In this document: positions 14,152 through 56,373 of the stretch, in pieces
Numbering within the stretch: position 1 is the stretch's first letter
How the letters are laid out: each line of letters starts with the position of its first letter
Source: Mesobacillus persicus
GTDB lineage: Bacteria > Bacillota > Bacilli > Bacillales > Cytobacillaceae
Length of the DNA stretch: 64,000 nucleotides
Direction: 5' to 3'
Assembly: GCF_900109925.1 (NCBI RefSeq)
Contig: NZ_FOBW01000010.1
Span: 69,710-133,709, forward strand
Position numbers and translations under genes: made by a program
Notes under the pieces: generated by a model
What the model was told of the DNA's origin: nothing
The model's database searches: none
Seen by the model: the letters and a program-made list of their open reading frames with translations, nothing else

Positions 14152-14403
14152 GCAAAATAAAAAAGAGCAACGATAGAGAAAAATCTATCGTTGCTCTTTG
14201 TAAGCAACTAGTTTCTCCATCACGATCTGTAGCTCCTCATTATGAGGGAATCCTCATAATGACAGTGTTACTCTTATTCAAAGTAACCCCAGCAATTAAC
14301 TTTAGACAAGTTTAATTACTTCGGCAGTATTTCCTTTTAACTGTGGTCATTGTTGTCATCCTCACACAGTCTACTCTTAAATCCTGCACCTCTACCCCAT
14401 CGG
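14152..14403 (-). promoter_or_regulatory. Lysine riboswitch (L box) with terminator
   Basis: Reading the reverse strand from 14403, the leader shows the L-box landmarks in order: GTAGAGGTGC, AAGAGTA, TGCCGAAG, TTGCTGG, TTTGAATAAGAGTAA, CACTGTCA and the closing CTAC..ATCG strand that pairs with CGAT..GTAG at the 5' end (aptamer 14219-14403). It is followed by an intrinsic terminator at 14152-14199 (15-bp stem, then TTTTTTATTTT). Lysine binding should favour the terminator and switch off the transporter gene. Confidence 0.93.
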
Positions 14404-27732: not shown

Positions 27733-28329
27733 TTACTTCCTTAGGATTCCCTGGATTACGTGAGCCATTCCGGTGTGTAGGATTCCTTCTTCCCGATTTT
27801 GTTCGCCGTAGAAAAAATGCTTTACCTCAAATCCTTTGCTCCATTCTAACAAATGTTGCGGATTATAAAGCATATCTTCCGTTTTTGGACCTCCTGTTTG
27901 ATAGCGAAGCTGTTCCTCCGAATACACTTCAAATAATACCAGGCCACCTGGCTTTACAGTTGAAAGCAATTTATCGAATACCGTTTTTTGGTTTTCTTTC
28001 GGGAAATGTCCAAACACCATAATACCTACGTCAAACTCCTCAGTAATAACTTGATCGTGAATTAAGTCTTTTTGCTCTGTTTCTACTCTAACATTGTATT
28101 GGTTCGCCAGTTGTTCTGTTTTCTTTAAGCCGTTTACTGAATAATCCCAAGCGGTCACATCATGCCCCTGCTTTGCAAGAAAAACAGCGTTTCTGCCCTC
28201 TCCTTCTGCAAACGCTACTACCTTTTTCTTTCCTTCTAATAGGCTCACTTGTGATTCAATAAAGGCATTCGGCTTTTCCCCATAAACAAAAACATCTGAT
28301 CCGAATCGTTCGTCCCAATGGTTTCCCAT
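27733..28329 (-). CDS. Class I SAM-dependent methyltransferase (TehB-like)
   Basis: A 198-residue soluble protein with SAM-binding motif I VVAFAEGEGRNAVFLA (near 37-52), the acidic end of beta-2 in VTAWDYS, motif post-I EFDVGIMVF and a GGLVLFEVYS strand. The N-terminus MGNHWDERFGSDVFVYGEKPN is typical of small TehB/thiopurine-like methyltransferases. The start is ATG 28329 after AAGGTG; GTG 28335 is too close to that site. The substrate is unknown. Confidence 0.85.
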   Translation of the reverse strand: MGNHWDERFGSDVFVYGEKPNAFIESQVSLLEGKKKVVAFAEGEGRNAVFLAKQGHDVTAWDYSVNGLKKTEQLANQYNVRVETEQKDLIHDQVITEEFDVGIMVFGHFPKENQKTVFDKLLSTVKPGGLVLFEVYSEEQLRYQTGGPKTEDMLYNPQHLLEWSKGFEVKHFFYGEQNREEGILHTGMAHVIQGILRK

Positions 28330-28511
28330 ACACACACCTTCTTATATTTTTTTTACTATAAATCTAAATCTAGGCTAAATATCATTATAACCTCTCAAGA
28401 AGAGAAAATTCGCATGCAACGTATCGAATAAAATGGAAAGGATAGCCTAACTTGTATAATTGAACTAGATTAAAGGACAAATAAAATTTAATAGTATGGA
28501 GGTACTAGTTG

Positions 28512-28832
28512 ATGGCAGAACTCACTTCAATTGAACAGGTTGAACAATTTATTAAGGATAATGAACTTAGTTTTATTTATGTGTTAACTGACAGCTGAAG
28601 TGTTTGTCACGGTTTGCTTCCTCAGGTTGAGGATGTTCTTAAAGATTTCCCACGAATCAAAATAGGGGTTATTAATGGCGAAACAGTTCCCGAAATAGCA
28701 GGATACTTAATGGCTTTTACAGTACCTGTCCTTGTCTTATATTTTGACGGGAAAGAGGTGTTAAGAGAAGCACGAATGGTACATATGGAAAAGTTTCATG
28801 AAAAAATTACGAGGATTTACGACTCCATCTAA
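28512..28832 (+). CDS. Thioredoxin-like protein with in-frame TGA at the first active-site Cys: candidate selenoprotein (UxxC)
   Basis: ATG 28512 follows GGAGGT by eight bases. The frame reads 28 codons, meets TGA at 28596-28598, then continues in the same frame for 77 codons to TAA and a terminator. Read through, it is a 106-residue thioredoxin fold: strand SFIYVLTDS, active site U29-S-V-C32, helix GLLPQVEDVLKDF, and the cis-proline loop FTVPVLVLYFDGKE (P72). The TGA falls exactly where relatives carry the first Cys of CxxC, and no other lesion is present. A hairpin 21-35 bases after TGA resembles a bacterial SECIS. Alternatives: a Cys-to-stop point mutation (TGT/TGC to TGA) or a base-call error. 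No Sec machinery gene lies in this window. Confidence 0.7.
28599..28636 (+). promoter_or_regulatory. SECIS-like hairpin directly downstream of the in-frame TGA
   Basis: TCCTCA (28619-28624), loop GGT (28625-28627) and TGAGGA (28628-28633) form a perfect 6-bp stem, extended by two pairs below a T-T mismatch. The loop starts 27 bases after the TGA and has G at its first two positions. Both agree with the general model for bacterial SECIS elements (stem-loop within the coding region shortly after UGA, small G-starting apical loop, GGU as in E. coli fdhF). Such a short stem can arise by chance. Confidence 0.5.
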
Positions 28833-28839
28833 TTTATAT

Positions 28840-28870
28840 AAAAAACCTTCACAACATGTGAAGGTTTTTT
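28840..28870. terminator. Bidirectional terminator between the thioredoxin-like gene and the small spore-type gene
   Basis: AAAAAACCTTCACA and TGTGAAGGTTTTTT are perfect 14-base arms around ACA, with T-runs on both strands. It closes the forward gene ending at 28832 and the reverse gene ending at 28885. Confidence 0.9.
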
Positions 28871-54178: not shown

Positions 54179-56373
54179 CAGCCTTCCACCTTCCTCACTT
54201 TAACGATTACTTCATGGATATTTCCTGAACCACTCCACTTTTCAAAGTCAAACGGAACATGTTCCATGTAGCCAAATCCAATGCCATATCCGATTTTTTG
54301 ATCCTTAGAAGTAATACCATAATGGCTTGGAACAAAGATAGCTTCGGGATGAATCCTTTCGGTCACCTTGACTCTAATTTTACTGGTTGCCTCACTAGAA
54401 GTTACTTCCACCATATCCCCTTCTTTAATACCTAAGGCTTTTGCTCTTGCTGGGTTGATCCAAATTCTCTCTAAATCATAATCTTTCGTAATTTGCATCA
54501 AAATGGATATATTTGCGGTTTGAGTATGACTATGGATGGCTTGTTTTCCTGTGATCAAACGGAAAGAGTTTTTATCTGGGTTGACCTTTGGTTCGACCCA
54601 TTCAACAACCGGGTTGAATCCCGCATTCTTATAGGTCTCGCTATAGAATTCGACTTTCCCTGATGGTGTTTTAAGCTTAGGCATTTCACCAAGTGTAATC
54701 GCTTGATCTGGGAACATGATGGTCCCTTTTTCTTTTAACTCCTGATAGGAAATTCCTGTAGGCTTAAGCATGGCTTCATTTAATTCATCAAGGGTAAAAT
54801 TAAAGTATTGCCCCACCCCGCATGCCTCAGCAAGTTCCTTGTAAATTACATCAATCGGCTTCGTTTGCGGGTGCACCTTGTCAACGATTTGCTGCCTTAG
54901 TGCCATACCCGGAGTTTTCCCTTTTAGTCCTTCAATTGCTTCCGTTCTTTCAATATAACTAACATCTGGTAGAATATAATGTGACAGCAGAGCTGTTTCA
55001 GACATCTGAACATCAATCGATACAACTAAATCCAATTTTGAAAGTGCTTCCTTCATCACTTTTGGATTTCCGTAACCTAAAGCAGCATTTGAATGGTTAT
55101 AAATAGCTGCCTTCATTTTTCCTTCAAGTGCTTCTTTTGCGACAATCGTCGCCACTCCGTTCGATTCATAAGCAAGAGGGAATTCTTTCACGCCTGCTTT
55201 AGGTAGTTCGGGTTCTTTTGGGGAAGGGTGTTTTGCCGAATCCAACTTTCCAAGGTTCGGTTTTCCACTAAAGACGCTTCCACCCTTTTGCTGTAGATTT
55301 CCTAGCAATGCGTTGAACATCGCTACAGCACGCCCTGTTTCTGTACTATTTTCATAGTTACAGCCAAATGCACCTCTCCAGGATTGTTCGATTAAAGCTT
55401 TCGGTTTCGCTTTCCCCATGTCAATGGCAATGCGAGAAATCGTATCTGCTGGAATGCCCGTTAATTCTTCAGCCCACTCTGGAGTATATTTCTTAAGAAC
55501 TTTTGCGTACTCCTCGAATCCTACAGTGTTCTTTTCGATGAATGCTTTATCATGAAGATTCTCCCTGATTAGAACATGCGACATCGCCAATACTAACGCA
55601 AGGTCCATACCTGGACGAATCGCTAACCATTCCGTTGCCAAATTTCCTGTATTGTTTAATCTCGGGTCAACGATGACAATTTTAGCACCATTGTCCTTTG
55701 CTTCAGCAAGGGCTTTAACAGAACTAGGGCGAATCGCATCTCCATAGCTTCTACCAATGAACATAATGTACTTTGCACTGCCAATATCAGCACTCGTAGA
55801 CGTAGCTCCAACAGTATGAAGGAACCCTGCATCACGGGCATTTGAGCAAACAACATGATGTGTATAATAGTTGGCAGACCCCAAAGCATTAATGAAGCGT
55901 GGAGAATAATATTTCCCTGAAGCTCGTGGATCCTCTGTTAGAGATATACTTTCTGGTCCGTGATCTTTAATAATCTGATTTAGTTTCTCAGCAATCTCCT
56001 TATATGCTTGGTCCCATGATATTGGTTCAAACTTTCCTTCGCCAACTCTTTTCAAAGGTTCAGTCAACCGGTCTGGAGAGTATACCAACGTCGCATACCC
56101 GTGTCCCCTTGCACATAATTTTCCTTTTGCATAAGGATGATCAGGGTGCCCTGTGATTTTCCATAATCTCCCGTTTTTTACATGTCCGATAATTCCGCAT
56201 TTACTTGAACATCCATTACATGTACTTGGGATTTCTAGTACTTCAACGTTCTCACTTGCCTTTACATACTCATTAGACCATTGATTAAATCCAACAGTAC
56301 CAACAGAAGCTAAAGCAGCTGTAGCCGTGGATGCTTTAATAAAACCTCTCCTTGATAGTTTCGTATCTAGCAT
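54178..56373 (-). CDS. Molybdopterin oxidoreductase catalytic subunit (polysulfide/thiosulfate reductase-like)
   Basis: A 731-residue DMSO-reductase-family enzyme. The Tat signal SRRGFIKAS (residues 7-15) sends it across the membrane folded. A 4Fe-4S motif follows (C52-X2-C55-X3-C59-X27-C87). The expected molybdenum ligand is C176 in HHVVCSNAR, as in the Psr/Phs and nitrate/arsenate-like branches with Cys or related ligands, not Ser. The C-terminal MGD-binding domain contains RLITGKQAIHSHTQ and SHYG. It probably reduces polysulfide, thiosulfate, tetrathionate or a Se/As oxyanion; the substrate cannot be settled by eye. Confidence 0.88.
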   Translation of the reverse strand: MLDTKLSRRGFIKASTATAALASVGTVGFNQWSNEYVKASENVEVLEIPSTCNGCSSKCGIIGHVKNGRLWKITGHPDHPYAKGKLCARGHGYATLVYSPDRLTEPLKRVGEGKFEPISWDQAYKEIAEKLNQIIKDHGPESISLTEDPRASGKYYSPRFINALGSANYYTHHVVCSNARDAGFLHTVGATSTSADIGSAKYIMFIGRSYGDAIRPSSVKALAEAKDNGAKIVIVDPRLNNTGNLATEWLAIRPGMDLALVLAMSHVLIRENLHDKAFIEKNTVGFEEYAKVLKKYTPEWAEELTGIPADTISRIAIDMGKAKPKALIEQSWRGAFGCNYENSTETGRAVAMFNALLGNLQQKGGSVFSGKPNLGKLDSAKHPSPKEPELPKAGVKEFPLAYESNGVATIVAKEALEGKMKAAIYNHSNAALGYGNPKVMKEALSKLDLVVSIDVQMSETALLSHYILPDVSYIERTEAIEGLKGKTPGMALRQQIVDKVHPQTKPIDVIYKELAEACGVGQYFNFTLDELNEAMLKPTGISYQELKEKGTIMFPDQAITLGEMPKLKTPSGKVEFYSETYKNAGFNPVVEWVEPKVNPDKNSFRLITGKQAIHSHTQTANISILMQITKDYDLERIWINPARAKALGIKEGDMVEVTSSEATSKIRVKVTERIHPEAIFVPSHYGITSKDQKIGYGIGFGYMEHVPFDFEKWSGSGNIHEVIVKVRKVEG

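Follow-up and report, generated by a model that had tools for sequence, protein, structure and literature searches.

What protein is made from a thioredoxin-like gene whose reading frame meets a stop codon at the active site is the question raised by a locus of Mesobacillus persicus, which lies in the stretch of 64,000 nucleotides analysed here (the window). We put at about 0.95 the probability that the internal TGA of 28512–28832 is read as selenocysteine (Sec), judging from comparison of this sequence with those of its relatives. The gene, thioredoxin-like and resembling YdfQ, occupies 28512–28832 on the + strand and runs for 106 codons, one of them the TGA, from an ATG (28512–28514) to a TAA stop (28830–28832). 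The in-frame TGA is codon 29 (28596–28598, +), the first position of a UxxC motif, and the codon of the putative resolving residue, Cys32, follows at 28605–28607 (+); the translation MAEL...TDS*SVCHG...IYDSI* accordingly gives U-S-V-C at the active site. By eye, a GGAGG ribosome binding site (28498–28502, +) stands 9 nt before the ATG, and an intrinsic terminator, a hairpin (ccttcaca-aca-tgtgaagg) followed by six T, lies at 28846–28870 (+), although the latter is absent from the list of a simple terminator scan. Ribosome binding site, ATG, in-frame TGA, stop and terminator are all present where an earlier note on this DNA had placed them, and the translation bears out its claim that the TGA takes the first Cys position of a CxxC. 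A frame with a single TGA is in itself not rare by chance, as eight frames with at least 25 codons before and at least 70 after the TGA occur in the window (five on the + strand and three on the − strand); what raises this candidate beyond chance is that the TGA, the downstream frame and a hairpin are kept in 50 family orthologues. Elsewhere in the window, a lysine riboswitch at 14222–14402 (−; 125.4 bits) is the sole Rfam match over the gathering score.

The protein is predicted with confidence to adopt the thioredoxin fold, as the earlier note had claimed. An AlphaFold2 model, built from 17 aligned sequences with position 29 as Cys, has a pLDDT of 94.6 and a pTM of 0.87, and in this model a helix (residues 30–43) begins directly after residue 29, the place of the attacking Cys. 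Cys32 and Pro72, the latter at the cis-proline position, are invariant in the 17-row alignment, so that the modelled protein combines a CxxC-type site before a helix with the proline of a cis-Pro loop, the features by which we assign it to the thioredoxin fold. Foldseek returns thioredoxin matches from E ~1e-9, and thioredoxins, or proteins designed with that fold, make up most of the 50 best PDB matches. Against family models the protein scores below the cut-offs: PF00085 gives E = 1.5e-4 and 22.1 bits, just under the Pfam gathering cut-off of 23.5, TIGR01068 gives 24.4 bits against a cut-off of 96.8, and all matched NCBIfam thioredoxin models score far below their cut-offs. The classical TrxA motif is WCGPC; the active site here reads DSUSVCH instead, which places the protein outside classical TrxA.

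The source genome (4.64 Mb, 99.99% complete) contains the whole set of Sec genes, selA, selB, selC (tRNA-Sec) and selD, for which the earlier note had proposed to look. SelB (366.9 bits, cut-off 242.25) is encoded on the same contig as the selenogene, about 42 kb away, the tRNA-Sec scores 63.5 bits, over the gathering score, with anticodon tca, and selA scores 576.2 bits. The selD gene (395.3 bits; G000:C28:288762–289688, L094), about 1.5 kb from selA, has an in-frame TGA at G-U-GCK, and the SelD of this genome is likely to be a selenoprotein itself. Two formate-dehydrogenase-like genes carry one TGA each (G000:C33:114955–115707, +, and G000:C24:54196–56217, −, L096); the best formate dehydrogenase match of the genome has its TGA at RT-U-H, and both genes likely encode further selenoproteins, the TGA site having been read for the C24 copy only. 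We take G-U-GCK in SelD and RT-U-H in formate dehydrogenase to be the usual Sec sites, and TGA at these sites makes it very likely that other genes of the organism are recoded. The window also holds a molybdopterin oxidoreductase gene related to formate dehydrogenase (54310–56223, −; 282.9 bits, under the cut-off) with no internal TGA. The earlier note's view that most Bacillaceae lack a Sec system does not hold for this group, where 170 of the 193 genomes of the GTDB family have a selB match above the cut-off. Close to selB at one locus lies a radical SAM/SPASM protein of TIGR04053 (505.5 bits, over the cut-off; L083 5109–6299), and a similar protein is found near selB and the selenogene at another (L085).

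Across relatives, the column occupied by the TGA is filled by TGA or by Cys, a point that the earlier note had proposed to check. Among the same 193 family genomes, with the gene called at E ≤ 1e-12, the gene is present in 57, with TGA at the active-site column in 50 and Cys in 7 (four TGC, three TGT). Within the genus, five of seven genomes (the source included) have the TGA gene, and the other two yield weak thioredoxin matches only. A second collection, the best 80 of 352 relatives in named genomes, comprises 37 TGA and 43 Cys loci, one of the latter (L155) read by eye, and a Cys codon stands in every row that has no TGA (7 of 57 in the family; 43 of 80 named loci). The TGA form is seen in records under the names Mesobacillus, Cytobacillus, Litchfieldia, Sediminibacillus and Planococcus/Planomicrobium as well as further ones, and the Cys form in records such as those of Oceanobacillus, Anoxybacillus and Psychrobacillus; the plasmid homologues (L183–L186, from 4 of the 16 records of a plasmid search) have Cys, not TGA. 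In a tree built from 90 of 137 rows (the 80 named loci plus 10 chosen family rows; 108 columns), 39 Sec rows form one group (SH-aLRT 97), while L072, L073 and L075 fall apart from it among Cys rows. The tree has two Sec/Cys changes in all, with 56 of its 86 inner branches open; Sec may have arisen on two occasions or disappeared repeatedly, and on so weakly resolved a tree we claim no count of origins. Copies in records titled Chryseobacterium, Pseudomonas, Paenibacillus and Roseburia (L104, L111, L123 and L154) group with Bacillaceae copies in the same tree, and the titles of these four records may be mislabelled.

The TGA form also tracks selB. SelB is found in 49 of the 50 family genomes with the TGA form versus 3 of the 7 with the Cys form, and in 9 of 9 TGA versus 9 of 40 Cys genomes of a second set, counts that are not independent because the presence of selB is phylogenetically clustered. 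The sole TGA genome of the family without a selB match (G085) is 66% complete. The second set consists of 49 genomes reached through the named loci (9 of the 37 TGA loci and 40 of the 43 Cys loci), and two of the 9, L110 and L157, overlap the family set, with identical selB places. Physical linkage follows the same line, with selB inside the fetched flanks (up to 4 kb) of 11 of 37 TGA loci and of 0 of 43 Cys loci; in one genus (g15) the selenogene often lies a few kb from selB.

The frame beyond the TGA is conserved as coding sequence. Over 38 distinct TGA sequences, the median dN/dS is 0.091 after the TGA (up to 68 codons, 309 pairs) and 0.208 before it (up to 22 codons, 227 pairs), once pairs with saturated dS (475 of 703 upstream, 356 of 666 downstream) and 37 downstream pairs of unequal length are dropped, which indicates that the downstream frame is under purifying selection. 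In 48 of the 50 family TGA rows the frame stays open for at least 77 codons after the TGA; early ends are seen at 63 codons (L021/L113) and at 69 codons (L059/L124).

Shortly after the TGA lies a candidate bacterial SECIS hairpin (28617–28635, +), composed in the window copy of CTTCCTC, the loop AGGTT and GAGGATG, with one T-T mismatch; across TGA forms the typical letters are CTTCCTC-AGGTT-GAGGAAG. Bacterial SECIS elements are hairpins situated shortly 3′ of the UGA with a G in the loop. Here the hairpin starts 18 nt after the UGA, its loop beginning 28 nt downstream from the T of the TGA, a distance that, together with the G-rich loop, presumably agrees with such elements. In the 50 TGA forms the codons involved are nearly frozen (Leu+7 as CTT in 45, Pro+8 as CCT in 48, Gln+9 as CAG and Glu+11 as GAG in all 50), Val+10 being freer (GTT in 39); other conserved codons mostly alternate between several synonyms, with a bias also at a few of them, for example Tyr-6, Asn+26 and Asp+50. 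Folding 58 nt of the window copy alone gives nothing out of the ordinary (z −0.43), and since such a single-sequence fold is uninformative, the hairpin was tested by 500 synonymous-codon reshufflings of the distinct 60-nt regions of both sets (53 TGA, 49 Cys). The mean hairpin energy of the TGA forms is −10.9 kcal/mol versus −3.6 kcal/mol after reshuffling, with 0 of 500 reshufflings as low, and that of the Cys forms is −1.5 kcal/mol, with 482 of 500 as low. An inner stem of at least four pairs is formed in 51 of the 53 distinct TGA regions versus 0 of 49 Cys regions, and GGT stands in the loop in 53 of 53 versus 12 of 49. These comparisons indicate that the hairpin is maintained at the synonymous level, and in TGA forms only. 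The argument for pairing is thus one of synonymous constraint and not of covariation, as the stem hardly varies and compensatory changes are found at none of its seven pairs in 36 sequences; in the alignment used (A2) the row L018 is cut 6 nt late and lacks the TGA, its stem columns being aligned. One stem pair is broken in two TGA rows (L020 and L021). A model of the hairpin (R1), of which the window copy is part, finds the selenogene in the source genome at E = 2.3e-13 and its next match at E = 1.39; with no second convincing match in that genome, R1 is blind to the recoding signals of selD or formate dehydrogenase. The simple scan had listed 28619–28633 as terminator-like, a reading that we rejected on the ground that the hairpin is kept only where the TGA is present.

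How far other explanations of the TGA account for these data can now be weighed. Were the gene a decayed thioredoxin pseudogene, hit at the active-site codon by chance nonsense or by a sequencing error, the eight single-TGA frames of similar size in the window would give it some footing, but the same TGA recurs in 50 of 57 family orthologues and at the Planococcus, Litchfieldia and Sediminibacillus loci, the median dN/dS after it is 0.09 and nearly all family TGA rows (48 of 50) run on for at least 77 codons, so that decay or error is hardly credible. It is equally hard to credit that the UGA ends a peptide of 28 residues and that the remainder is a separate gene of 72 amino acids begun at an internal TTG: an open reading frame with such a start does exist (28614–28832), yet the part before the TGA contributes the opening strands and helix of the fold and shows conservation in the frame of the rest, the Cys orthologues are single open frames, and a hairpin confined to TGA forms would have no explanation if the gene were separate. 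UGA is the leakiest stop codon, and read-through by an ordinary tRNA (Trp or other) in place of the Sec system could appeal to this property. That reading is nevertheless very improbable, given that Cys is the alternative residue in all rows without TGA, that the TGA tracks selB, and that the hairpin is present along with selA, selB, selD and tRNA-Sec in the genome.

The earlier note had preferred Sec over random nonsense, and this preference is supported by the Sec genes, the conserved TGA column and Cys as the alternative at that column. Under Sec decoding, SelB would deliver Sec-tRNA(UCA) to UGA codon 29 under the guidance of the hairpin, giving the full protein of 106 residues, in which, within U-S-V-C, Sec29 would attack as a selenolate and the thiol of Cys32 would act as the resolving group. 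Both would sit near Pro72, at the cis-proline position of thioredoxins as judged from the fold, and the protein would most likely serve to reduce persulfides or disulfides when the cell is under sulfur or selenium stress.

The neighbourhood of the gene bears on this proposed role. A TehB-like SAM methyltransferase gene (27733–28335, −) is the divergent neighbour of the selenogene and is linked with it in many relatives: close copies (E ≤ 1e-80) are found in 40 of the 193 family genomes, and comparison by eye places them immediately next to the TGA gene in 39, the exception being G099. Elsewhere the two genes are convergent in Planococcus (Sec) and co-directional in Psychrobacillus and Lederbergia (Cys), and the tally of linkage at Cys loci depends on the query, being 5 of 43 with the window protein and 7 of 43 with that of Psychrobacillus. 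In one genome of the same genus (G004:C72:4628–5008) the methyltransferase gene next to the selenogene is reduced to a broken copy interrupted by stops. Among the 80 named loci, rhodanese-metallo-beta-lactamase genes lie near four Sec loci (Planococcus/Planomicrobium) and five Cys loci. The four Sec loci also encode a DUF302 protein and a protein that, by eye, we call CsoR-like, and in Planococcus all three genes, where listed, are on the strand opposite to the selenogene; at the five Cys loci (Psychrobacillus and FJAT-50079) a TauE exporter stands beside the rhodanese-metallo-beta-lactamase type. Pfam assignment of neighbours covers the proteins of L177, L152 and L137 only. The Cys homologues on plasmids neighbour TusA and TauE in B. 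licheniformis, and a sulfurtransferase, a metal-sensing repressor and YtxJ in Priestia. Within the fetched flanks, nothing matching rhodanese-lactamase, TauE or CsoR turns up at the loci of Mesobacillus and Cytobacillus. The account of the B. licheniformis chromosomal cluster in PMC9918477 includes ydfQ, a hypothetical thioredoxin, describes YrkD of the YdfQ cluster as CstR-like and sensing sulfane sulfur, and reports poorer growth with sulfide and sulfane sulfur of a mutant without yrkE-ydfQ, a phenotype that is not specific to ydfQ as several genes are missing in that mutant.

On this evidence, the window protein has about an even chance of being the Sec form of a YdfQ-type thioredoxin that acts, most likely, on persulfides or disulfides, a proposal based on the sulfane-sulfur genes beside some Sec and Cys homologues and on the TehB-like methyltransferase as a frequent neighbour. 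A true selenoprotein with a general role in thiol-disulfide or peroxide redox chemistry, and not in that of sulfane sulfur, is a serious competitor at slightly under even odds; it is favoured by a fold and best family matches that are those of a plain thioredoxin and by the Mesobacillus and Cytobacillus loci, where the selenogene has no sulfane-sulfur gene match beside it, and is opposed by the sulfane-sulfur genes that lie beside some Cys homologues and beside the Sec forms of Planococcus, and by the B. licheniformis cluster. Returning to the persulfide role, we raise as a speculative and rather unlikely extension that the Sec thioredoxin of this group of Bacilli strips sulfane sulfur (or selenium) from persulfides and that the TehB-like methyltransferase methylates the sulfide or selenide released. 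If true, the two genes would form a chalcogen detoxification module in which selenium chemistry handles reactive sulfur and selenium.

Gene callers that take TGA as a stop would close the gene at codon 29 or open it only downstream of the TGA, as a mechanical listing of open reading frames does, and the protein is probably missing from or truncated in annotations, those of Mesobacillus, Cytobacillus, Planococcus and relatives being the genomes probably affected. For Bacillales, a 2006 survey gives three selenoproteins in three families in the part that concerns this order (PMC1794560), to which the present gene would add a thioredoxin-like selenoprotein, and a 2026 review states, in its treatment of the subject, that selenoproteins are rarely retained by aerobic bacteria (PMC13188914). 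Orthologues that are close to one another but differ in Sec or Cys, and in having the hairpin or not, provide a natural set for asking what Sec brings to a thioredoxin. In literature on selenoproteins in Bacillaceae, Mesobacillus, Planococcus, Cytobacillus and Bacillus, titles and abstracts contain no description of the gene that we could find, though one may exist elsewhere, and a term search of the available text of PMC12013277 and PMC5029168 finds no thioredoxin.

Several known proteins can be set beside the window protein. The candidate for YdfQ itself is a stretch that lies unannotated on a plasmid of B. licheniformis, with TauE on one side and a PAS/histidine kinase gene pair on the other; this order fits that of the cluster as outlined in PMC9918477, and from it we infer that the stretch is ydfQ. 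It is 44.6% identical to the window protein over residues 22–104, with CTVCH at the site and hence Cys where the window protein has Sec, and it is probably broken, since the first 21 residues are not continued in frame. The best sequence match among solved structures, PDB 4euy (E = 7.5e-15, residues 5–99), is an uncharacterized protein whose entry name gives no function and which has CGVC where the window protein has USVC. SaoT (NF040730) and the HUIPC motif (NF047660), as far as they are covered in PMC13188914, are UxxC thioredoxin-like selenoproteins too, and neither is among the NCBIfam matches of the window protein up to E = 1. The kind of protein is known from other bacteria, and for its well-supported member in these Bacilli we found no description. 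UxxC thioredoxin selenoproteins of PF00085 appear in Geobacter, Anaeromyxobacter, Carboxydothermus and Treponema in Table 3 of PMC1794560, and rows for a thioredoxin selenoprotein family stand also in the tabulated parts of PMC13188914 and PMC9312934. These proteins likewise have Sec in the UxxC of a thioredoxin, and their hosts, as given in that part of PMC1794560, are anaerobic and belong to other groups.
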